Assembly (NCBI GenBank): GCA_024277175.1
Contig: JAJRVT010000083.1
Span: 1-41,752, forward strand
Source: Chloroflexota bacterium
GTDB lineage: Bacteria; Chloroflexota; Anaerolineae; Caldilineales; Caldilineaceae
DNA: 41,752 bases
Direction of reading: 5' to 3'
This document shows, piece by piece, positions 11,202 to 35,674 of this stretch. A program made the position numbers and the translations under genes. Below the pieces are notes generated by a model, which made no database searches, was not told the origin of the DNA, and worked only from the letters and a program-made list of their open reading frames with translations. Every line of letters begins with the position of its first letter. Position 1 is the first letter of the stretch.

Positions 11202-11334
11202 CTATTCAGGTGGGATCTGTTGGAACACGGATTTGCGCTGATAAAAACGGATTTTCACGGATTTCCCCTGAAAAATCCGTGAAAATCCGGCTCCATTCGG
11301 TAAAATCAGCGTTCCAATGATGATCACTGAATAG
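11202..11334. repeat. Palindromic repeat family 1, copy B (133 bp, intact ends)
   Basis: Exact terminal inverted repeats CTATTCAG (11202-11209) and CTGAATAG (11327-11334). Inside are further arms: TTGGAACACGGAT against ATCAGCGTTCCAA, and a central hairpin CACGGATTT...AAATCCGTG. It lies between the PfkB and UroD-like genes. It has no coding capacity. Confidence 0.85.
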
Positions 11335-22626: not shown

Positions 22627-22686
22627 CTTCACGCTTTACGTCTTCACGTTTTACGCCTTCACGTTTTACGCCTTCACGTTTCACGC
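22627..22686. repeat. Four tandem 15-bp repeats abutting a stop codon
   Basis: Four consecutive 15-mers of the form CTTCACGTTTTACGC (22627-22641, 22642-22656 and 22657-22671, 22672-22686; the middle two identical, the outer ones with one to two changes), preceded by a partial copy. The last base of the array is the last base of the regulator's stop codon on the minus strand. Read in frame it would code for a KREGV-type repeat, which is not translated from the chosen start. Confidence 0.85.
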
Positions 22687-24422
22687 TAACCCATCACCAA
22701 CGGCGCTTCTTCGGCGATGGTGACGGTAATATCTTTCTGCGCCAGCGCCAGGCGGTGGCGGGAACTGATCGCGCTGTCGGTGATCAGGTGATTGATCTTC
22801 TCGACAGGGGCGATCCGCACCAAAGACTCCACGCCCAGTTTGGAAGAGTCGGCCAGCAGAATCGTCTCGCGCGCGGCCGCGATCATGGCCCGCTTGACAG
22901 CGGCCTCGGCCATATTGGTATTGGACAGGCCAAACTCCAGGCTGAGGCCCGTGGTGGAGACGAACGCCTTGTCAACGCGCAGATGCTGGAACGCGGCCTC
23001 CGCCCTGGAATCGACCAGCGACTGGCTCTCCTTGCGCACAATGCCGCCGCTTGAAACGAGCGTTATGCCCGCTTCATCCTTCAGTTCGGCCAGAACCCGC
23101 AGCGAATTCGTGATCACGGTGATGCCTTCTCGTCCCCGCAACGCCCTGGCGAGGTAAGCGGTCGTTGTCCCGGCATCGAGGATGATGGTATCGCCTGCAT
23201 TCACGAATTGGGCCGCGGATTTCCCGATGGCGCTTCTCAGGGCGTCGACTTCCTGGTCCATATCCTGGCTGGCGTCGATCATCTCCAAAATGGCCCCCGA
23301 CGCACGGCTGCGCATCTGCATAGCGCTGCGTAAATTTTGATACCAAGCATGGGAACTGAAGACGCCGATGTAGCCGATTCGCCTGGGCTTGCGCCGAACC
23401 TGATCCTTTCCGAGCATGGAGAAGCCGGCGCTTCCCGATTGCAACTGCTCCACCCGAGACCAGTCCGTTCGCCAGCCGCCGGTCCGTTCATCACGATAGT
23501 AAAAGGAATGGAGCGTTTTGGGGGTGACAATCGCGTACGGCGTAGCGATGCATTCCGGGATCGGATAGCCCCCGTAAGCGCAGACGGCGGCGTCCACGCA
23601 CGCCCGTCCCACAAGCTCCGGGAACATGGCCACGCTGATGGTATATGGTTGGCCCCGTTCCAGCAGATCCTTGGCGGCATCACCCTCCAGCCCAAACAAG
23701 ACCAGAAGCAACTTGCTTTCATCCAGCCCTGCGGCCTGATAGGCCTCCAACGCGCCCAGCGTCGAGTCATCATTGATGCCGAAGATCACATTGATTTCAG
23801 GATGAACGTCCAGTGCATCGGCTGTGATCTGGCGGGCGGTTTCAAAAAGGCCCATGCCGTTGATGCTGATAATGGTTCTCTGGCCGGCAGGCAACTGATG
23901 CAGGCCGTCGGCGAAGCCCCGACTGCGCGCCTCCGTGTTGGATTGGGGATAGGAAACGTCCAGGGCGACAACTTGTCCGTCGAAATGCCGGTTGGCGTAC
24001 TCGGCCACCCGCTGTCCAACCTCGCGGCCGGCCTGGTAATTGTCTGTGGAGATGACGGTGACGGCTCCGGGATAGTACTTGGATTCGGCGATGATGGGGA
24101 TGCCGGCGCTCTTGCACTGTTCCACGAGCAGGTGGGTCGCCTTGGTGTCGCTGGGGGTGACGATCAGCACATCGGCCCGGTCGGCCAGGGCGATGCGGGC
24201 TTCGATCAATCCGCCTCCCGTGGGGCGTCTTGGCGCCTGCGAATCGATCGTAATCGCCCCGCCATGGGTGCGGAACAGCTCACCGCGTTCTTCGAGCCGC
24301 CGCAGATCCCGGCGCGCGGTCTCGGGAGAGCAGTTGCAATGGGCGCAGATCTGGGCGACCGTGACAATGCCACGTTGTGCAAGCAACTGTTGGATAATTG
24401 CATCGCGTTCGCTCGGGATCAT
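22686..24422 (-). CDS. Mosaic transcription regulator: DeoR HTH, permuted periplasmic-binding domain, DeoR effector domain
   Basis: 578 aa. Residues 4-55 form a DeoR-type winged HTH (RDAIIQQLLAQRGIVTVAQICAHCNCSPETARRDLRRLEERGELFRTHGGA). Residues about 75-310 look like a ribose-type periplasmic-binding protein lacking its first units (ADVLIVTPSDTKATHLL, IPIIAES, TDNYQAGREVGQ, VIFGINDDSTLGALEA, ending AIVTPKTLHSFY). Residues about 346-390 (RRIGYIGVFSSHAWYQNL, ILEMIDASQD) look like the missing first strand-helix-strand. Residues about 395-550 are a DeoR effector domain (GDTIILDAGTTTAYLARAL, ITVITNSLRV, ADSSKLG). It probably senses the island's sugar or its phosphate. A strong promoter at 24484-24512 rules out the longer frame to 24512; the ATG at 24422 has only a weak ribosome site. 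It heads the minus-strand operon. Confidence 0.85.
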   Translation of the reverse strand: MIPSERDAIIQQLLAQRGIVTVAQICAHCNCSPETARRDLRRLEERGELFRTHGGAITIDSQAPRRPTGGGLIEARIALADRADVLIVTPSDTKATHLLVEQCKSAGIPIIAESKYYPGAVTVISTDNYQAGREVGQRVAEYANRHFDGQVVALDVSYPQSNTEARSRGFADGLHQLPAGQRTIISINGMGLFETARQITADALDVHPEINVIFGINDDSTLGALEAYQAAGLDESKLLLVLFGLEGDAAKDLLERGQPYTISVAMFPELVGRACVDAAVCAYGGYPIPECIATPYAIVTPKTLHSFYYRDERTGGWRTDWSRVEQLQSGSAGFSMLGKDQVRRKPRRIGYIGVFSSHAWYQNLRSAMQMRSRASGAILEMIDASQDMDQEVDALRSAIGKSAAQFVNAGDTIILDAGTTTAYLARALRGREGITVITNSLRVLAELKDEAGITLVSSGGIVRKESQSLVDSRAEAAFQHLRVDKAFVSTTGLSLEFGLSNTNMAEAAVKRAMIAAARETILLADSSKLGVESLVRIAPVEKINHLITDSAISSRHRLALAQKDITVTIAEEAPLVMG

Positions 24423-24483
24423 GATTATTTCGCTGTTTTGTGACCGAGATTGGCTGACTTTGAGGGAGGCGTCTCGTATCTTT

Positions 24484-24512
24484 ACTATACGCCGGCCATA
24501 CAGCCATGTCAA
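24484..24512 (-). promoter_or_regulatory. Strong promoter of the regulator/sugar-catabolic operon
   Basis: On the minus strand a consensus TTGACA (plus 24507-24512) is 17 bp from TATAGT (plus 24484-24489). Transcription would start near 24477, giving a leader of about 55 nt to the ATG at 24422. Confidence 0.75.
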
Positions 24513-26329: not shown

Positions 26330-28135
26330 TTACACCCGCTCTTCCTTTCGGCCTTCCTGGTAGGCCGCGTGTTGGTCGGGGAAATATTCGGGCACCGGCA
26401 CATCCCACCAGCCGGGAGCCAACCCGCCCGACTGGCCGAACGCCATATCCACCATCACTTCGATCACAGATGGACGCCCGGAAGCCAACGCCTCCTCCAG
26501 CGCCGGGGCCACCTTGTCTGGCTCGGTGATGCGCACGGCATGCGCCCCAAAGGCTTTGGCCGCGTCGGCCAGGTGGGGTGATTGGGGCTGACCGGCCCGC
26601 TCGAACATGGTGGCGTAGTCGGTTCCATCCCCGAACGCGATCTTTTGCAGGTCCCGAATGGCCTGCCACCCCTGGTTGTTCACGATGACAGCCACCACCG
26701 GGATGTTGTACTGGACGGCCGTGGCCACCTCCTGGATGGTCATCAAAAAATCGCCGTCGCCGACCATGGCCACCACAGGCGCATGGGGCGCGGCCAGCTT
26801 TGCGCCCAGGGCCGCGGGGTAGGACCAGCCCATGGTGCTGAACCCGCCGGCGGAGAGATAGGTGCGGGGGCGGGTGAACCCCATTTCCTGGAAGACCTGG
26901 GCCTGGATATTGCCCGACGATGAGAGCACGATGCCCTCGGGCGGCAACGCCTTGCGCACCTCGGTGATGACTCGCCCCATGGTGACCGGCGCACTCTCTG
27001 CTTCCCGCAGCGCGCGGTTATTGGCCCACCAGTCGGCCACCCGTTCCCCGATCTCCCGGGTGTAGGGCGCATTCATCCAGTCCCTGGCCGGCGTCGACTC
27101 TTTGGCGGCGCTGACGAATTCGGAGAGCACGGCCTTGGCGTCGCCCACGACGCCCACCGTCACCGGGTAATTCTTGCCGATCTCGAACGGGTCGATATCC
27201 ACGTGGATTAGTTGGGTGGGCGGAATGTTGAAGGATTCGCCCGGCCGGTAGGAAGAGGTGGCCTTATCCGCGAAACGGACGCCCACCGCCAGGATAACAT
27301 CCGCGTGGACGGTCATGTAGTTGCCGCAGGTGGTGGCGTTGCTGCCCATGTGCCAGGCGTAGAGGGGATGATTCTCCGGGATCGCGCTCTTTCCCTGCAT
27401 GGTGGTGACCACGCAAGCGCCCAGATGCTCGGCCAGTTGCAGCAACTCCTCCTCCGCGCGGGAGAGGATCACCCCGCCGCCGGCGACGATGACCGGGCGT
27501 TTCGCCTGGCTCAGCAGCTTGACGGCCCGGCGCACCTCGGCCGGATCGCCGGCGGGGCGATCGTGGGGGCGGCGGGCGGGCGAGTCCAGCAACTCGTCAT
27601 GGACATCCACGCTCTGGGCCTGGACGTCCATGGGCAATTCGACCATGACTGGGCCGGGTCGCCCGGTGCGCATGGCGTTGAACGCCTGACTCACGGCCCG
27701 GGGCAGTTGCCCGGCGCTGTCGATGCGCCAACTGCGCTTGACCGTCGGCTCCAGGATGCGCGGCATATCCGACCAGCGTTTGCGCTCCAACTCCTGCAGG
27801 ACGCCCACCCCGCGCATGTACGTGTGGGTTTCGCCGATCAGCAGCAGCAACGGGATCGAGTCCACATACGCCGTGGCCAGGCCGATGGCGGTGTTGGACG
27901 CGCCCGCACCGATGGAGGTGAAGACCGCCAGCGGCTCGCCCTTGACCCGGAAGTAACCGTCCGCCATGTGAACGGCGGCCTGCTCGTGGCGGGGCATGAT
28001 CACCTGGATGCGATCCTGGTAGCGCCGAAAAGCCTCCACCAGCGGCAGGTTCCCATGGCCCGGAATGCCGATGGCGTAGGGGACCTCTTCGCGGGCGAGT
28101 ATTTCAGCAATGATTTCCGATCCTGTAAGTTTCAT
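26330..28135 (-). CDS. Thiamine-diphosphate-dependent enzyme, acetolactate synthase-like
   Basis: 601 aa with the three ThDP-enzyme domains. N-terminal PYR domain: RHEQAAVHMADGYFR contains the catalytic Glu. Middle Rossmann-like domain: RPVIVAGGGVILSRAEEELLQLAEHLG. C-terminal PP domain: VGDGDFLMTIQEVATAVQYNIPVVAVIVNN is the GDG...NN ThDP/Mg motif. Family members decarboxylate 2-keto acids and release or ligate the aldehyde. With a sugar-acid dehydratase directly downstream, a role on a 2-keto-3-deoxy acid (decarboxylase or carboligase) is plausible; IolD-like hydrolysis or true acetolactate synthesis are alternatives. No regulatory small subunit of acetolactate synthase is nearby, which argues against the anabolic enzyme. 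Confidence 0.9.
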   Translation of the reverse strand: MKLTGSEIIAEILAREEVPYAIGIPGHGNLPLVEAFRRYQDRIQVIMPRHEQAAVHMADGYFRVKGEPLAVFTSIGAGASNTAIGLATAYVDSIPLLLLIGETHTYMRGVGVLQELERKRWSDMPRILEPTVKRSWRIDSAGQLPRAVSQAFNAMRTGRPGPVMVELPMDVQAQSVDVHDELLDSPARRPHDRPAGDPAEVRRAVKLLSQAKRPVIVAGGGVILSRAEEELLQLAEHLGACVVTTMQGKSAIPENHPLYAWHMGSNATTCGNYMTVHADVILAVGVRFADKATSSYRPGESFNIPPTQLIHVDIDPFEIGKNYPVTVGVVGDAKAVLSEFVSAAKESTPARDWMNAPYTREIGERVADWWANNRALREAESAPVTMGRVITEVRKALPPEGIVLSSSGNIQAQVFQEMGFTRPRTYLSAGGFSTMGWSYPAALGAKLAAPHAPVVAMVGDGDFLMTIQEVATAVQYNIPVVAVIVNNQGWQAIRDLQKIAFGDGTDYATMFERAGQPQSPHLADAAKAFGAHAVRITEPDKVAPALEEALASGRPSVIEVMVDMAFGQSGGLAPGWWDVPVPEYFPDQHAAYQEGRKEERV

Positions 28136-28144
28136 GATTCCTCC

Positions 28145-29206
28145 CTACAGTATGACGGCCTGACCCACACGCGCCGACTCCTGGGCGGCCAGGGCGAAAC
28201 GCAGGACGTCGCGCCCCTCGCGGCCAGTCAGGCTGGGCGGCTCACCTTTGAAGTAGGCGTCGATGAAGTGGCGGGTCGAGTTGATGAAACTGTGCTCCCA
28301 CCCCGCGGGCATGTCGAAGAAGGTGAACGTCCGCCTGTCCCGATAGAGCACAACCGGGGGAACGTCGAGCATCTTGCCATGCCCGCGCGTGATCCAAAGC
28401 ACGCCGCGGGTGCCTGTGATCTCGATGCGATCATCTTGCGCATAATGATTGGTTTCGAGCATGAGGTCGGGGGAGAAAACGACTTCGAGCGATCCGTAGC
28501 GGTTGCCGGGAATTTTCCAGGACACCATGGCCGGCGCGTCAAAGGCCAGCCCAGGCATGAATTCGGTCTCCCCAATCCAGGCGTGCACTTCCTCAGCCAG
28601 CCCCATGAAGAACCAGGCGAGGGAGAATTTATGATGGCCGTCGTCAAAAACCAAAGGGCCGCCTCCGCAATGTTCAGGATTGAAACGCCAGGCCCAGGCG
28701 GAGGGCGGCACCTCCCAGGCGTTGGGGCTGGTCCCGGCATTGCTCTTGATGCGAATGGTGAGCGGGTCGCCGATCTCGCCGGCTTCGATCAGGGCTTTGG
28801 CGCGCTGCACCGGCGGATAGAAGATGAAATTTTCGAAAACCTTGAAAATGACGCCGGCGTCATCCGCGGCCGCGATCATCTCGTCCGCCTCGGCCACCGT
28901 GAGCGCCATGGGTTTTTGGAGGGAGATGTGTTTGCCGGCCGCGGCTGCGGCCAGCATGGCCTCCCGGTGCAGGTGATGGGGTAGCAGGATCTCCACCAGG
29001 TCCACGTCTTTCAGGGCCAGCAGATCGTGATACTCGGTGAAGACCCGGTCATCCGGCACGTCCCATTTGCGCGCCTGTTTTTGGGCGATATCCCGATCGA
29101 TGTCGCACACAGCCACGATCCGGGCCCGCTCGTTACGCAGATACTCCAGGGCGTGCAGATCGGAAATACGACCTGCACCGATGAACCCTACTCTAAGCTG
29201 ATCCAT
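28145..29206 (-). CDS. Gfo/Idh/MocA-family NAD(P)-dependent oxidoreductase
   Basis: 353 aa. The N-terminal Rossmann fold has GFIGAGRISDLHALEY and VCDIDRD; the family EKP motif appears as LQKPMALTVAEADEM, giving Gln instead of Glu before the catalytic Lys. The C-terminal substrate domain includes GGGPLVFDDGHHKFSLAWFFMG, matching the D-x-G-x-H pattern of sugar/inositol dehydrogenases, and an ITGTRGVLWITRGHG strand. It likely oxidises a sugar, polyol or sugar acid. It is 9 bp from the ThDP enzyme gene in the same operon; a MITE-like repeat separates it from iclR. Confidence 0.92.
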   Translation of the reverse strand: MDQLRVGFIGAGRISDLHALEYLRNERARIVAVCDIDRDIAQKQARKWDVPDDRVFTEYHDLLALKDVDLVEILLPHHLHREAMLAAAAAGKHISLQKPMALTVAEADEMIAAADDAGVIFKVFENFIFYPPVQRAKALIEAGEIGDPLTIRIKSNAGTSPNAWEVPPSAWAWRFNPEHCGGGPLVFDDGHHKFSLAWFFMGLAEEVHAWIGETEFMPGLAFDAPAMVSWKIPGNRYGSLEVVFSPDLMLETNHYAQDDRIEITGTRGVLWITRGHGKMLDVPPVVLYRDRRTFTFFDMPAGWEHSFINSTRHFIDAYFKGEPPSLTGREGRDVLRFALAAQESARVGQAVIL

Positions 29207-29222
29207 GCTCCCTCCATGACAT

Positions 29223-29345
29223 CTCTTCAGCCAGACTCCGTTGGAACGCGGGTTTCCGCTGATTCAAACGGATTTTGCAGAAAAAATCCGTGAAAATCCA
29301 GCTTCATCCGGTAAGATCCGCGTTCCAATAGTGGTCGCTGAATAG
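29223..29345. repeat. Palindromic repeat family 1, copy D (123 bp)
   Basis: The outer arms are CTCTTCAG (29223, one change from CTATTCAG) and CTGAATAG (29338-29345). Inner arms are TTGGAACGCGG...CCGCGTTCCAA and the central ACGGATTTTGCAG/GAAAAAATCCGTG hairpin. It lies between iclR and the Gfo/Idh gene. Confidence 0.85.
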
Positions 29346-29405: not shown

Positions 29406-30146
29406 TTATGGACGTTTGAAGCTGAGATGATCGGACAGCGCCTGGGCGACGCCGGTCACCTTGGCCGCCATGGTGGAAATGGTCTCCAGGCTCATCCGGT
29501 TTGACGGGCCGGAGATGCCCATGGCGGCGACCATTTCGCCGTTCAGGTTGTAGACGGGGGCGGCGATACAGCGGACGCCGTAGTCGTACTCCTCATCGTC
29601 GATGGCGTATCCCTGCCGTCTCACCTGCTCCAGGTGCATTTTCAACGCCCCCTGATCGGTGATGGTCCTGGGCGTATGGGCCGTCAACGCTGTGGGGAGG
29701 GGGACGTCACCAAAGGCCAGAAGCACCTTGCCCAGCGCGGTGCAATGCAGGGGGGCCAGATGACCGATGTCCGCATTGACCCGCAAGGTGGCGGGCGAAT
29801 CGACCTGGTCGATGTAGAGGACCTGCCCCTGGGCTGCGATGGCCAGATGGGCGCATTCATTGGTGATCGCGACCAGCTCGCGCAGATAGGGTTTGGCTTC
29901 GTCTCGAAACGGCATGCGCGCCAACAGGCTTTGGCTCAACTCGACGATTTTCGGTCCCAAACGATAGCGTTGGGTGTCCCGATCTTTTTCGGCATAGCCG
30001 TAGTTGGCCAAGGTCTGCATGAGCCGGGACGCGCTGGCCTTGTCCACGTTGAGCTGGTCAGCCACTTCCGTGATGCTGACCTTGTCCGTGGCCGCCAATA
30101 GTTCCAGAATTTTCAGACCTCGCGCCAGCGATTGAATTTCCGCCAA
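29406..30146 (-). CDS. IclR-family transcriptional regulator
   Basis: About 246 aa. A winged HTH (LARGLKILELLAATDKVSITEVADQLNVDKASASRLMQTLANYGYAEKD) is followed by the IclR effector domain. That domain is recognised by APLHCTALGKVLLAFGD, GYAIDDEEYDYGVRCIAAPVYNLNGEMVAAMGISGPSNRMS. Effectors of such regulators are usually small acids or pathway intermediates. The TTG at 30146 follows an AGGCAGG site; upstream in-frame codons to 30245 include the promoter and operator and are unlikely to be translated. It sits at the centre of a divergent regulon: catabolic genes downstream on its own strand and an importer on the other. Confidence 0.9.
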   Translation of the reverse strand: MAEIQSLARGLKILELLAATDKVSITEVADQLNVDKASASRLMQTLANYGYAEKDRDTQRYRLGPKIVELSQSLLARMPFRDEAKPYLRELVAITNECAHLAIAAQGQVLYIDQVDSPATLRVNADIGHLAPLHCTALGKVLLAFGDVPLPTALTAHTPRTITDQGALKMHLEQVRRQGYAIDDEEYDYGVRCIAAPVYNLNGEMVAAMGISGPSNRMSLETISTMAAKVTGVAQALSDHLSFKRP

Positions 30147-30209: not shown

Positions 30210-30226
30210 GTTGCATATTGTACAAC
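30210..30226. promoter_or_regulatory. Operator 1: GTTG...CAAC palindrome over the iclR -10 box
   Basis: GTTGCATATTGTACAAC, 17 bp, overlaps the -10 box of the iclR promoter. It shares GTTG, central ATTG and CAAC with operator 2 at 30271-30287. Confidence 0.6.
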
Positions 30227-30245
30227 CAAGTGCAAAAAATGTCAA
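30217..30245 (-). promoter_or_regulatory. iclR promoter (leftward)
   Basis: On the minus strand a consensus TTGACA (plus 30240-30245) is 17 bp from TACAAT (plus 30217-30222). Its -10 box lies within operator 1, which implies autoregulation. Confidence 0.75.
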
Positions 30246-30270
30246 GGTTGTGGAAAATTGCGGCCAAATA

Positions 30271-30306
30271 GTTGATAATTGCGCAACAGTGTTGTATTAT
30301 CACAAC
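30271..30306. promoter_or_regulatory. Operators 2 and 3: two GTTG...CAAC palindromes over the importer promoter
   Basis: GTTGATAATTGCGCAAC (30271-30287) covers the -35 box and GTTGTATTATCACAAC (30291-30306) covers the -10 box of the rightward promoter. The two sites start 20 bp apart, about two helical turns, and operator 2 starts 61 bp from operator 1. Confidence 0.65.
30272..30300 (+). promoter_or_regulatory. Importer/AOR operon promoter (rightward)
   Basis: TTGATA (30272-30277) and TATTAT (30295-30300) are 17 bp apart; each matches its consensus at 5 of 6 positions. A leader of about 108 nt precedes the ATG at 30415. Confidence 0.72.
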
Positions 30307-30414: not shown

Positions 30415-31734
30415 ATGAAAACCCACAGACTTGTCACATTCGTTGCGATGGTGATTTTGCTATCGCTGGCCCTGAGCGCCTGCACCGCTCCGGTGGCGCC
30501 GGCCCCCGCTGACGGCGGGCAGCAGGCGTCCGAGCCCGCAGAAGAGCTCAGCGTGACCGCCATGCACTATTTCAGCGGCACGTTGGGGCGGGGCGCTCTG
30601 GCCGACATTTTTAAGAGCTTCCAGGAGGCCAACCCGGGCATCACCGTGTTCGATAACCCCATCGGCCATGAAGATTTCAAGACCACCATCCTGGTCATGC
30701 TGGCCGGTGGCGATCCCCCCGACATTTTCTCTTACTGGGCAGGCGCTCGGGTGCAGTTCATCGTCGACAGCGATCGTCTGGCCCCCATCGATGACCTGTG
30801 GGATGAAAACAATCTAGATGAGGTTGTGCCCGCTTCCTTGGCGGCCGGGGCCACCGTGTACAACGATCAGCGCTACCTGATCCCTTTCGGATACCACTAT
30901 GTTGGTATGTTCTACAATCCGAAGGTGATGGCGGATGCCGGCGTCACCGAGTTCCCCACCACCTGGGACGAGCTGATCACGCTGGCTGACACGCTGCAAG
31001 CCGCCGGTGTCAAACCCTTCGCCCTCGGCTCCATGAACCGCTGGCCCGCCCAGTTCTGGTTCGACTATCTGCTGCTGCGCACGGCCGGCCCGGAATACCG
31101 GAGCAAGCTGATGGCCGGCGAGGCCTCCTACACCGACCCTGAAGTGCAGCGGGTGATGGAGATGTGGAAGGAACTGGTGGACAAGGGCTACTTTGTCGAC
31201 GACGCCAACGCCTATGACTGGACCGACGCCGCCGATCAGGTGGCCAACGGCGAAGCCGCGATGACGCTGATGGGCACCTGGATCACGGGCTACTGGAACA
31301 CCAATGAGCTGACGCCCGGCGAAGACTACGATTTCTTCATCTTCCCGACCATCGAGGAAGGCGTGCCCATGGCCGCCCTGGGTCCTGTGGATGGCTGGGT
31401 GCTGGCCAAAGACGCCAAACACCCCAACGCCGCCCGCAAACTGCTCGCCTACCTGATCACCGACACCCAGTCCCAGGGGGATTGGGCCATCGCCCAGGGT
31501 GCGCTGTCGCCGAACGTCAACGTCGATCCGAGCATCTACAATGACGTCATGCAGAACGCGCTGGCCGCGGTGGATTCGGCGGACACGTTCACGTTCAACT
31601 ACGACCTGGCCACCACGCCACCCATGGCCGAAGGCGGTCTGGATATGTTCGCCCAGTTCATGAACGATCCCAGCGGTTACATGGACTACCTGGAACAGAC
31701 CCAGGCGGTCGCCGAGGATGTGTTCGCCCAGTAA
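30415..31734 (+). CDS. Sugar ABC transporter solute-binding lipoprotein (CUT1), second system
   Basis: 439 aa. Signal peptide with lipobox LSAC (lipidated Cys23), a short Ala/Pro linker, then a family 1 binding protein (GGDPPDIFSYWAGARVQFIVDSDRLAPIDDLWDE, YLIPFGYHYVGMFYNPKVMADAGVTEFPTTWDEL, GEAAMTLMGTWITGYW). ATG 30415 has AGGAGG nine bases upstream; the longer frame from 30169 would cross the promoter and operators and is rejected. It is related to the binding protein at 17209-18546 (compare EMWKGMIEKGYF and EMWKELVDKGYF). It is first in an operon with two permeases, an aldehyde:ferredoxin oxidoreductase and a MoaD/ThiS-like protein. Confidence 0.94.
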   Translation: MKTHRLVTFVAMVILLSLALSACTAPVAPAPADGGQQASEPAEELSVTAMHYFSGTLGRGALADIFKSFQEANPGITVFDNPIGHEDFKTTILVMLAGGDPPDIFSYWAGARVQFIVDSDRLAPIDDLWDENNLDEVVPASLAAGATVYNDQRYLIPFGYHYVGMFYNPKVMADAGVTEFPTTWDELITLADTLQAAGVKPFALGSMNRWPAQFWFDYLLLRTAGPEYRSKLMAGEASYTDPEVQRVMEMWKELVDKGYFVDDANAYDWTDAADQVANGEAAMTLMGTWITGYWNTNELTPGEDYDFFIFPTIEEGVPMAALGPVDGWVLAKDAKHPNAARKLLAYLITDTQSQGDWAIAQGALSPNVNVDPSIYNDVMQNALAAVDSADTFTFNYDLATTPPMAEGGLDMFAQFMNDPSGYMDYLEQTQAVAEDVFAQ

Positions 31735-31790: not shown

Positions 31791-31856
31791 ATGAGCTCGA
31801 TGATTTATTTGCTCGCCGGTCCTAAGAGTGATTCTCCATCGTGTTGAATGGAACTG

Positions 31857-31886
31857 CCGGGCAGGCGAACATTGTCGTCTGCCCGG
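31857..31886 (+). other. Second hairpin in the binding-protein/permease gap
   Basis: CCGGGCAG (31857-31864) pairs with CTGCCCGG (31879-31886); the stem can continue inward through CG/CG with bulges. There is no T-run, so it is more likely an mRNA-stability or processing structure than a terminator. Confidence 0.55.
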
Positions 31887-31964
31887 TGGTATGTTTGCTC
31901 TGTAAGTCTCGCCTCGTTTCCAGCGTACAGGGTTTCCAGCGTACGAAGAATGAAGGGACCAAGC

Positions 31965-32849
31965 ATGATCAAAAGGCAGCGACGGCTATGGACTATTGGC
32001 TTCATAAGCATCCCGCTTGTGGTGTACACGATTATCGTCGTCGCCCCCCTCTTTTACTCCTTTTTCTATAGCCTGACGGACTGGAATGGGTTGAGTTCGG
32101 ACTTCAATTTTGTGGGGTTCAAGAACTTCGCCAAGGTATTCAGCGATCCGCTCTTCGCCAACGCCATCAAGAACACGGTCATCTGGACCGTGGTGGCGAT
32201 CACCGCGCCAACCCTGGCTGGCCTGACCCTGGCGCTGATCCTGCGTGAGGGCATTCGCGGGGCGAACATCTACAAGTCCCTCTTCTATTTGCCCATCGCC
32301 CTCTCACTGGCGGTGATCGGCCAGATCTGGATCTGGATCTATCAGCCTCGTTGGGGACTGCTCAACGTGGCGCTGGAAGCGATCGGACTGGAGAGTGCAA
32401 CCCGGGCCTGGCTGGCCGATCCCCAGACCGCGCTCATTTCCGTCATCGCCGCTTGGTCATGGCAACAGGTGGGCCTCAGCATGGTGATTTTCCTGGCCGG
32501 CCTAACCTCGATTTCGCCGGAACTGACCGAGGCCGCGCAGATCGACGGAGCCAACTACTGGCAGTCGCTGCGCTATGTGATCATCCCCCTGCTGCGCCCG
32601 GCGTCTATCGTCGTCGTCGCCCTGGCGGTCATCAACTCCCTGAAAAGTTTCGACATCGTCTTCACCATGACCAAGGGGGGGCCGTTTCATTCGTCTGATA
32701 CGCTGGCCATGTTCATGTACAACGAGTCCTTCAAGAAATACTACATGGGTTACGGCAGCGCCATTGCCGTGGTCCTCTTTCTGATCGCGCTTGTGGTCAT
32801 TGCCCTCTATTTCCGACAAGTGAAAGCGGTGGAGCAGCTCTATGACTGA
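31965..32849 (+). CDS. CUT1-type sugar ABC transporter permease, MalF-like, second system
   Basis: 294 aa with six or so membrane segments starting LWTIGFISIPLVVYTIIVVAPLFYSFFYSLTDWNG. The EAA loop is ELTEAAQIDGANYWQSLRYVIIPLLRP and the end VVIALYFRQVKAVEQLYD. ATG 31965 has AAGGGA about seven bases upstream; the longer frame from 31848 lacks any family similarity and starts inside a hairpin. The stop overlaps the start of the MalG-like gene by 8 nt. Confidence 0.93.
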   Translation: MIKRQRRLWTIGFISIPLVVYTIIVVAPLFYSFFYSLTDWNGLSSDFNFVGFKNFAKVFSDPLFANAIKNTVIWTVVAITAPTLAGLTLALILREGIRGANIYKSLFYLPIALSLAVIGQIWIWIYQPRWGLLNVALEAIGLESATRAWLADPQTALISVIAAWSWQQVGLSMVIFLAGLTSISPELTEAAQIDGANYWQSLRYVIIPLLRPASIVVVALAVINSLKSFDIVFTMTKGGPFHSSDTLAMFMYNESFKKYYMGYGSAIAVVLFLIALVVIALYFRQVKAVEQLYD

Positions 32850-33720
32850 GTCACTTGACAGCGCCCAACAACCTACGCCTGAAAAGCGGAAGAAGCGAAA
32901 TTGGGGAGCGATGGCCCTGCTTTATGTGGTGCTGACGGCGATCGTCATCGTCTACTCCATGCCAGGCATAGGCGTGCTGATCACCTCCGTGAAGACCAAC
33001 GAAGAGATCGCCAAGGACGGGCTGTGGTCGTTGCCCGAAGAGTTCAGGCTCAGCAACTACCAGGAGGCCTGGACCAACGGCAATCTGAAAACCTACACTA
33101 TTAATTCTATCCTGGTCACCATCCCGGGCGCGTTTGCCTCCATCGCCCTGGGCCTCCTGCTGGGCTATGTGTTCAGCAAACTGCCGTTCCGGGGCAGCAA
33201 TGCGCTTTTCATTTTTGTGGTCGCCGGCATGTTCTATCCACCCCAGATCGTACTGATCCCGCTTTTTCGCCTTTTCAACGCGGTGGGGTTGTATGACACT
33301 CTGTGGCCCATGATCATCGTACACACAGCCTTTGGCATCCCCATCTGCACGCTGATCATGCGCAACTTCTTCGCCACTGTGCCCAACGCCCTGCGCGAAG
33401 CCGCGATCATCGATGGCGCCAACGAGGGCCAGATATTGCGCAAGATCATGCTGCCGCTGAGCCTGCCGGCCTTGGCGGTGCTGGCCACGCTCCAATTCAC
33501 TTGGATCTGGAACGACTTCCTCTGGCCGCTGATTTTCACCCAGTCGGATTCAGTGCGCACCATTATGATCGGCATCGTCGCCATGCGCGGACAGTATTCC
33601 GTGGCTTGGGGCGTCCAGGGAGCCATGTCCGTCATCGCCAGCCTGCCGACGCTGCTCATCTTCATTTTCCTGCAACGATACTTCATCCGCGGACTTACAT
33701 TAGGGTCAGTAAAAGGGTAA
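32842..33720 (+). CDS. CUT1-type sugar ABC transporter permease, MalG-like, second system
   Basis: 292 aa. First membrane segment AMALLYVVLTAIVIVYSMPGIGVLITSVKTNEEI, EAA loop ALREAAIIDGANEGQILRKIMLPLS, and C-terminus FLQRYFIRGLTLGSVKG, typical of MalG-like subunits. Its ATG lies inside the last codons of the MalF-like gene, implying translational coupling. The aldehyde:ferredoxin oxidoreductase gene begins 10 bp after its stop, which ties import to that oxidation step. Confidence 0.94.
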   Translation: MTESLDSAQQPTPEKRKKRNWGAMALLYVVLTAIVIVYSMPGIGVLITSVKTNEEIAKDGLWSLPEEFRLSNYQEAWTNGNLKTYTINSILVTIPGAFASIALGLLLGYVFSKLPFRGSNALFIFVVAGMFYPPQIVLIPLFRLFNAVGLYDTLWPMIIVHTAFGIPICTLIMRNFFATVPNALREAAIIDGANEGQILRKIMLPLSLPALAVLATLQFTWIWNDFLWPLIFTQSDSVRTIMIGIVAMRGQYSVAWGVQGAMSVIASLPTLLIFIFLQRYFIRGLTLGSVKG

Positions 33721-33729
33721 GGTTTCACC

Positions 33730-35430
33730 ATGCAAATTCTGCGAGTCAACCTCACAACCAACGCCGTCTTGTATAAGGACGTCCCCGAAAGCTGGCGCGC
33801 CTATGGCGGGCGCGCCTTGGTCGCGCGCTTTCTCCTGGACGAGGTGCCCCCGACGTGCGAGCCGCTGGGACCGCGCAACAAGCTGATCTGGGCGCCCGGC
33901 CTGCTGGTGGGGCATATGCTCTCTAGCGTGGACCGGATCTCCGTGGGCGGGAAAAGCCCGCTGACCGGCGGCGTCAAAGAGGCCAACGCTGGCGGAACCA
34001 CGGGCATGAAAATGGCGTGGCTGGGGCTGCATGCGTTGATCATCGAAGGCGGACCGCCGGCGGACGGAAGCTGGAAGATCCTCTACATCGACGCCGAAGG
34101 GGCCAGGCTCGAACCCGCGGGCGATCTGGTTGGTCTGGGCCTGAAGGAGACGGGGGAGCGCCTGACCGAACGATATGGGAGTAAAATCGGCATCTCCGCC
34201 ATCGGCCCGGCCGGGGAGCGGCTCTATCGCTCCGCGGGCGTCACCCACATGGACGCGGACCTCAACCTCACCCGCCTCTCGGCCCGGGGCGGGCTGGGCG
34301 CGGTGATGGGATCGAAGCATCTCAAAGCCATTATTTTCGACCAGCCGCGGGCCAATCGCCCGCCGGTCGTGGATGAGCAACGGTTCAAAGACGCCTCGCG
34401 GGCCTACCTCAAGATTCTGCGCGAGCACCCCCAGACCGGCCAGATCTACCCGACCTATGGCACCGCTGGCATGGTGGAGTTATGCAACGCGGTGGGCGCA
34501 CTGCCGACGCGCAACTTCTCGGCCGGCCGCTTCGAGGCCGCCGACCGCATCAGCGGCGAAGCCATCCACGATCTCAACCTGGCCAGGGGCGGGCAGATCG
34601 CCCACGCCTGCATGCCCGGCTGCATCATCAAATGCTCCAACATCTATTTCGGCCCGGACGGCAAGCCCCTGGTCACGCCCCTGGAATACGAAACCATCGG
34701 CCTGATGGGGTCAAACCTGGGCATTGACGACCCGGACGTCATCGCCAGGATGAACGACATCGCCAACGACATGGGTATGGACACCATCGACACGGGCGCG
34801 GCCCTGGGCGTGGCCGCCGAGGTCGGCCTCCTGGCCTTCGGCGACGGAGAACGGGCGCTGGTGCTGATGGAGGAGGTGAAGACAGGGACGCCCCTGGGCC
34901 GCATCCTCGGCAACGGCGCGGCTCTGGCCGGGCAGGTGCTAGGCGTGACCCGGGTTCCAGTGGTCAAGGGGCAGGCCATCTCGGCCTATGACCCGCGCGG
35001 GACCAAGGGCACGGGCGTCACCTACGCCACCTCGCCCCAGGGCGCGGACCACACCAATGGCCTCACCATCCGGGCCGACGTGGACCACACAGATCCTAAG
35101 GGCAAGGTGGAGCTATCCCGCCCGGCCCAGCTCAATATGGGAGGATATGACTCGTTGGGCGTCTGCCTCATGGGCACGTTCGCCTTTGGCGTGGATCCGA
35201 CCCTGATCCCGGAACTCGTCAATGGCCGCTACGGCTGGGATATGGAGCCGGACTATCTTCAGCAGTTGGGGCTTGAATGCATTCGCATGGAGCGGGAGTT
35301 CAACCGCCGGGCGGGGTTCACCGCGGCCGACGATCGCATCCCGGAATGGATGACAGTAGAGCCATTGTCGCCACTCAACTCTGTCTTCGACGTGCCTGAT
35401 GAGGAACTGGACGCCATCTTCGATGGATGA
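33730..35430 (+). CDS. Aldehyde:ferredoxin oxidoreductase-family tungstoenzyme
   Basis: 566 aa, slightly shorter than the ~600-aa norm. The N-terminal pterin-binding domain shows RVNLTTNAVLYKDVPESWRAYGGRALVARFL, SSVDRISVGGKSPLTGGVKEANAGGTTGMKM and LSARGGLGAVMGSKHLKAI. The [4Fe-4S] ligands are Cys294, Cys298 and Cys302 (HACMPGCIIKCSN), with a distal Cys479 (DSLGVCLMG). The spacing CxxxCxxxC is one residue wider than the CxxCxxxC of the Pyrococcus enzyme. The family oxidises aldehydes to acids using W-bispyranopterin and ferredoxin. In the operon it follows sugar permeases and overlaps a MoaD/ThiS-like gene, so the aldehyde is probably a catabolic intermediate of the imported compound. Confidence 0.9.
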   Translation: MQILRVNLTTNAVLYKDVPESWRAYGGRALVARFLLDEVPPTCEPLGPRNKLIWAPGLLVGHMLSSVDRISVGGKSPLTGGVKEANAGGTTGMKMAWLGLHALIIEGGPPADGSWKILYIDAEGARLEPAGDLVGLGLKETGERLTERYGSKIGISAIGPAGERLYRSAGVTHMDADLNLTRLSARGGLGAVMGSKHLKAIIFDQPRANRPPVVDEQRFKDASRAYLKILREHPQTGQIYPTYGTAGMVELCNAVGALPTRNFSAGRFEAADRISGEAIHDLNLARGGQIAHACMPGCIIKCSNIYFGPDGKPLVTPLEYETIGLMGSNLGIDDPDVIARMNDIANDMGMDTIDTGAALGVAAEVGLLAFGDGERALVLMEEVKTGTPLGRILGNGAALAGQVLGVTRVPVVKGQAISAYDPRGTKGTGVTYATSPQGADHTNGLTIRADVDHTDPKGKVELSRPAQLNMGGYDSLGVCLMGTFAFGVDPTLIPELVNGRYGWDMEPDYLQQLGLECIRMEREFNRRAGFTAADDRIPEWMTVEPLSPLNSVFDVPDEELDAIFDG

Positions 35431-35440
35431 ACCTGAGACC

Positions 35441-35674
35441 ATGGCCGTCACGGTTCGCCTGCTCTCCATCCTGCGGCACCGTGACGGCGCTATCGTCGAC
35501 CAACTTCACCTGCAACTGCCCTTAGGCAGCCAGGCCAGTGATGCGTTGCGGGCCGCAGAGATCCCCAGTCAGGTGGAATTTATCCTCACCGTCAACGGAG
35601 AGTTGGCCCACGAAGGCGTCACGCTCAACCAGGGAGACCAAATTTCACTGATCCCCATCATCGCCGGCGGCTGA
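35441..35674 (+). CDS. MoaD/ThiS-like sulfur-carrier protein
   Basis: 77 aa with a beta-grasp pattern (AVTVRLLSILRHRDG... VEFILTVNGELAHEGVTLNQGDQISLIPIIAGG) and the essential C-terminal Gly-Gly, which is adenylated and thiocarboxylated by an MoeB-type partner. Such proteins supply sulfur to molybdo/tungstopterin; MoaD-like genes often accompany tungsten aldehyde oxidoreductases. An in-frame ATG at 35423 overlaps the oxidoreductase stop codon and is an alternative start; both have weak ribosome sites, and 35441 matches where the family fold begins. Confidence 0.85.
   Translation: MAVTVRLLSILRHRDGAIVDQLHLQLPLGSQASDALRAAEIPSQVEFILTVNGELAHEGVTLNQGDQISLIPIIAGG

Follow-up and report, generated by a model that had tools for sequence, protein, structure and literature searches.

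A regulator of the IclR family usually controls its own gene and one or two neighbouring operons, and these proteins can form tetramers (PMC8222616). In the same paper, Suvorova and Gelfand (2021) define a group 1 of the family that includes a subgroup GTT-11-AAC, the only one among the tabulated group-1 subgroups in which Chloroflexi sites occur, and report that 94 orthologous groups have tandem sites with a spacing of 18-22 bp. Some members of the family, such as PcaR and BhcR, activate or both activate and repress. For the IclR-family regulator PcaR of Pseudomonas putida, a title cited in PMC8222616 (Guo and Houghton, 1999) places activation and repression at the -35 and -10 elements. PcaR, and PcaU and PobR of Acinetobacter, have a half-site, GTTCGAT, that is related to the one described here, and are associated with aromatic acids; the site of PcaU consists of three boxes. 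BhcR of Paracoccus denitrificans is divergent from the operon that it regulates, control of both promoters has been proposed, and a dual-role model has been described (PMC11323563).

The locus reported here lies in the window, i.e. the whole stretch of 41,752 nucleotides that was analysed, and belongs to a genome of 5.2 Mb in 440 contigs (G000). An iclR gene and a carbohydrate importer operon diverge from an intergenic region that holds three GTTG...CAAC elements.

26330..28135, minus strand: thiamine-diphosphate enzyme gene, acetolactate-synthase-like (Pfam)
28145..29206, minus strand: Gfo/Idh/MocA dehydrogenase gene, downstream of iclR (Pfam)
29406..30146, minus strand: IclR-family regulator gene (Pfam HTH_IclR 54.5 bits, IclR_C 157.5 bits)
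30210..30226, no strand: putative operator site 1, GTTGCATATTGTACAAC, 17-bp dyad that covers the iclR -10 box
30217..30245, minus strand: iclR promoter TTGACA-17-TACAAT (consensus scan, 11/12 matches)
30271..30287, no strand: putative operator site 2, GTTGATAATTGCGCAAC, 17-bp dyad that covers the importer -35 box (TTGATA)
30272..30300, plus strand: importer promoter TTGATA-17-TATTAT (consensus scan, 10/12 matches)
30291..30306, no strand: putative operator site 3, GTTGTATTATCACAAC, 16-bp variant that covers the importer -10 box (TATTAT)
30415..31734, plus strand: extracellular solute-binding lipoprotein of a carbohydrate ABC importer (Pfam SBP_bac_1 167 bits)
31848..33720, plus strand: two ABC permease genes of the importer (open reading frames; syntenic homologues)

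Both Pfam scores of the regulator exceed their cut-offs (22 bits for HTH_IclR and 24 for IclR_C), which places it in the IclR family, and the protein matches PDB entries 1mkm, 8eju, 1ysp and others. Its best NCBIfam match is BhcR (NF045644), where it scores 208.2 bits against an equivalog cut-off of 350; for PcaR/PcaU/PobR (TIGR02431) it reaches 178.7 bits against a cut-off of 284.75. Unlike in the BhcR system, the genes examined around iclR include none that was recognised as part of the beta-hydroxyaspartate cycle, and the putative site of BhcR lies upstream of the bhcA -35 box and not on it. The PcaR/PcaU/PobR systems differ in their GTTC arms, where the window has GTTG, and in serving aromatic acids instead of carbohydrate import. 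Translation of iclR probably starts at the TTG at 30146, which is preceded by AGGCAGG; a longer reading frame, to 30245, would begin at the -35 box of iclR's own promoter.

The solute-binding lipoprotein gene is the first of the divergent operon, a homologue is divergent from iclR in 10 of 20 orthologue loci, and one importer permease (32842-33720) has NCBIfam sugar-permease matches. Directly after the permeases, at 33730-35674 on the plus strand, lie an aldehyde ferredoxin oxidoreductase-type gene and then a ThiS/MoaD-like gene. Among the catabolic genes downstream of iclR, which also include a sugar-acid-type dehydratase gene, the Gfo/Idh/MocA dehydrogenase has a 67-80% identical counterpart as neighbour of iclR in five other genomes (G256, G331, G159, G238 and G207) and is possibly co-regulated; the thiamine-diphosphate enzyme has a 77-78% identical syntenic homologue in the first three of these.

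The original prediction described three palindromes placed exactly on two divergent promoters. Sequence and coordinates of the three elements proved exact, and a consensus scan confirmed that they lie on the -10 box of iclR and on the -35 and -10 boxes of the importer. The two promoters, divergent and of sigma-70 type, are the best two of the region (four found, 0.6 expected), and the scan gives each the predicted 17-bp spacer. Measured between centres, site 3 is 19.5 bp from site 2, and site 1 is 61 bp (5.8 turns) from site 2, in agreement with the predicted two and six helical turns. The term palindrome holds for the outer 4-bp GTTG/CAAC arms, which are perfect in all three sites, but not for the inner bases, which pair only partly (base pairs in all: 6/8 in site 1, 5/8 in site 2 and 6/8 in site 3); the sites are dyads with perfect 4-bp arms, not full palindromes. 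The core proposed for them, GTTG-n3-ATTG-n2-CAAC, had to be abandoned: it fits sites 1 and 2 only, ATTG is not conserved, and the comparative consensus is GTTGYRTAWWRYRCAAC. Searched genome-wide as GTTGNNANTTGNNCAAC with one mismatch, this core gave 17 matches, against 25 for a reversed-pattern control, and is therefore no useful motif.

The pattern GTTG-N8/9-CAAC has three matches in the 268-bp intergenic region, compared with a mean of 0.024 in dinucleotide shuffles, and at least three such dyads were obtained in one of 20,000 shuffles (5e-5). Over the whole window the bare pattern with one mismatch allowed is not enriched (14 found, 13.8 expected); the signal is thus local, and the argument rests on position and conservation.

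When compared with the GTT-11-AAC class, for which sugar uptake and use are typical, sites 1 and 2 and the consensus show its odd length of 17 bp, its GTT...AAC ends and its A/T-rich three-base centre (W3); site 3 has 16 bp. The published class has a pyrimidine at base 4 (GTTYC...GRAAC), whereas the window has G (GTTG...CAAC). This variant has precedent, since the published TphR site, TTTTTGCGCATAGCGCAAAAA, has G there too. The centres of the tandem sites, 19.5 bp apart here and 20 bp in the orthologues, fall within the published range of 18-22 bp. The motif, which had been put forward as new, is by its sequence a G4 variant of the GTT-11-AAC class with the tandem spacing already published (PMC8222616), and an identical group may already stand in the supplementary tables of that paper. 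In our reading this is a real, well-conserved operator system of an already known kind of switch.

Absence of the motif near orthologous iclR genes, which the original prediction named as counter-evidence, is not what we found. The orthologue set comprises 63 iclR copies with 45-64% identity from the same class; many of them come from one genus (g141), so that the number of independent observations is nearer to that of genera than of genomes. A palindromic profile was built from the upstream regions of the initial 26 orthologues, the window being excluded from training. It ranks site 1 first in the window (22.1 bits) and site 2 second (16.9 bits), followed by a position with 9.0 bits; with one central position deleted, site 3 is the best 16-bp match in the window (19.0 bits). 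Site 2 fits the profile less well than site 1, and part of its match is the -35 box itself. Base 4 is G in about 83% of the orthologue sites in the profile. Profiles were also cross-trained between two sets of families, each being tested on the set not used for its training; counting sites of at least 9 bits, at most 300 bp upstream, they detected the motif in 53 of 54 orthologues of one family and in all nine from other families, that is upstream of iclR in 62 of 63 orthologues and, by genus labels, in 16 of 17 genera. The exception is G207, upstream of whose iclR no recognisable site was found. Among distant paralogues (33-41% identity), 5 of 30 have the motif upstream.

This IclR occurs once in the genome of the window, where the other IclR match is a distant paralogue (32% identity); a scan of genome contigs gave only relatives with 29-30% identity. 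No further orthologue was found in a 400-genome sample of the phylum at E ≤ 1e-60. Thirty-six genomes of the same family have no close IclR orthologue while many occur in other families of the class, and because of this distribution the iclR locus may have moved horizontally.

The close orthologues examined have Asp-Lys at the first two recognition-helix positions (27-28 in the numbering of PMC8222616, assigned by visual comparison with the positions given there for TtgV and PobR), with the exception of G207, which has Glu-Lys. Of 81 other IclR proteins of the class, all three with Asp-Lys have a strong upstream GTTG dyad (19-21.5 bits), compared with a dyad of at least 17 bits in three of the 78 without it (Fisher p = 2e-4, for a small sample and with kinship ignored). 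The arms tend to follow the helix, Ser-Lys going with GTTCT, Pro-Lys with GTTCC and Asn-Lys with GTTTC (loci L148-L200 and earlier paralogue loci). In the IclR paralogue loci, bases 4-5 of the upstream dyad vary with the first residue of the recognition helix. The pairing of Asp27-Lys28 with GTTG is a possible residue-to-base rule that would extend the published IclR recognition map.

The arrangement of the sites recurs as well: several families combine two tandem sites, 20 bp apart on the divergent promoter, with a third one on iclR. The place of site 3 is taken in the orthologues by a 17-bp site, 20 bp away from the inner one; site 3, with 16 bp instead of 17, may bind weakly. All 34 divergent-side tandem pairs have TTGACA (at least 5/6 match) within the inner site, the positional counterpart of site 2, and 27 of them have a -10-like hexamer (at least 4/6) in the outer site, after a further 17 bp. 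Because the tandem sites carry both the -35 and the -10, the 17-bp promoter spacer and the 20-bp operator period amount to one constraint; with operators built into both promoter hexamers, the operator period sets the spacer. The -35/operator geometry of the iclR promoter is shared by 21 of 62 iclR-proximal sites. In three genomes (G119, G390 and G057) the tandem pair lies on iclR's own promoter and no importer homologue was found beside iclR, on contigs that are short in G057 and G119; the motif is therefore tied to iclR and not to the importer.

The distance from the inner site to the iclR site is 49-52 bp (about 51) in three families (f56, f48 and f36) and several genera of a fourth (f20), and 61 bp in the window; the outer distance, 70-72 bp in most loci, is 80-81 bp in the window as in genus g154. 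The spacing thus changes by one whole helical turn, not by half a turn, which is compatible with placement on the same face and is no proof of looping.

The dyads are present, non-random, conserved with IclR orthologues and in their spacing, and overlap both promoters exactly. It is probable that sites 1-3 are operators of the adjacent IclR, which would cover both core promoters and repress its own gene and the importer until a ligand arrives. Position and conservation support the predicted control of both promoters. Binding by this IclR, repression and not activation, the oligomeric state and the ligand are what we infer. Without inducer, IclR dimers would occupy site 1, and a pair of dimers or a tetramer the tandem sites 2 and 3, which lie two helical turns apart on the same face. 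By occupying sites that overlap the -10 box of iclR and both boxes of the importer promoter, bound IclR would exclude RNA polymerase, and both iclR and the importer operon would be repressed. Both operons would be turned on when IclR is released by an intracellular ligand, for which the imported sugar or sugar acid, or a keto acid derived from it, is the probable candidate. For an uncharacterised group of IclR regulators, represented here by genome assemblies only, this yields a concrete and testable set of predicted operators and a small regulon.

As an addition to repression, IclR at site 1 and at the tandem pair might hold the 61-bp segment between them as a small loop or bridge, so that the two promoters switch together. 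We consider this possible but tentative. The one-turn differences in both the inner and the outer distance would suit it, as would the tetramers that IclR proteins can form; a loop of 50-60 bp is stiff, however, the tandem pair can occupy a tetramer by itself, and several orthologues are without one of the partner sites. Same-face placement can also be kept by other constraints, and the shift is seen in few independent lineages. A literature search on IclR looping at divergent promoters found nothing direct. Somewhat more speculative is a combined version, in which the helical phase between the iclR operator and the promoter-embedded tandem pair would be under selection (about 51 bp, with a whole-turn shift in two lineages), a tetramer would couple the promoters via a very short loop, and Asp27-Lys28 would read the GTTG arm.

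The main rival to repression of both promoters is a dual role, in which IclR would repress its own gene at site 1 and, with ligand, activate the importer via the tandem sites. The best subfamily matches of the protein, BhcR and PcaR/PcaU/PobR, would be in line with such a role, albeit all below cut-offs, given the dual model for BhcR (PMC11323563) and what the cited title says of PcaR, and the importer -35, TTGATA, is one step off consensus. Against an activating role, which we judge unlikely, speak the burial of both core elements by the sites, the lack of any site upstream of the importer -35, and the near-perfect promoter that orthologues have at this place (TTGACA-17-TACAAT in G331), which would need no activator.

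It is very improbable that the sites belong to another regulator, such as the DeoR-type fusion protein encoded at 22686-24512. Its gene lies about 6 kb away and palindromes alone do not identify their binder, but the motif follows iclR orthologues even in loci without a homologue of the fusion protein by tblastn, and it belongs to a published IclR class (PMC8222616). A chance origin from promoter hexamers (GTTGACA and GTTGTATAAT read into GTTG) is refuted by the orthologue data and has a negligible probability, for although the TTG of the -35 shares letters with the GTTG arm and the bare pattern lacks window-wide enrichment, the opposite CAAC arms hold no promoter letters and yet are conserved across families, and three sites are as rare in shuffles as given above.

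With regard to the regulon of the predicted IclR repressor, no position of its 5.2-Mb genome other than site 1 matches the consensus without mismatch, and a search there with RTTGNNNAWTNNNCAAY added only weak candidates. In 24 other genomes the exact consensus occurs only at iclR, once also just after it, and five control genomes without a close orthologue have no exact match. Three further positions were rejected as targets, C118:40089 (17.8 bits; inside long open reading frames), C351:5828 (16.6 bits; overlapping the start of a 139-aa frame) and C10:9343 (14.7 bits; before a 142-aa frame of unrelated appearance), and no convincing extra target was found among the candidates in this genome. 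In 8 of 20 orthologue loci (L088, L089, L090, L096, L097, L098, L099 and L105) an extra GTTG...CAAC site of at least 14 bits follows the iclR stop at a distance of 17-93 bp, at or before the start of the next gene. The profile scan found no such operator between iclR and the next gene in the window, where a dispersed repeat (29236-29332) is located instead, so the catabolic genes downstream may be served here either by the iclR promoter, through read-through, or by a different promoter.

Two further features of the window were observed. The protein encoded at 22686-24512 on the minus strand is an unusual regulator that combines, in this order, a DeoR helix-turn-helix, a periplasmic-binding-protein type-1 domain and a DeoR C-terminal sensor domain, and since near full-length matches exist in G051 (52%) and G057 (38%) the fusion is real. 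The dispersed repeat is about 97 bp long, has inverted-repeat ends (TTGGAACGCGG...CCGCGTTCCAA) and occurs in another copy at 11216-11318; it was matched at about 40 places in the genome, with 408 first-look candidates.
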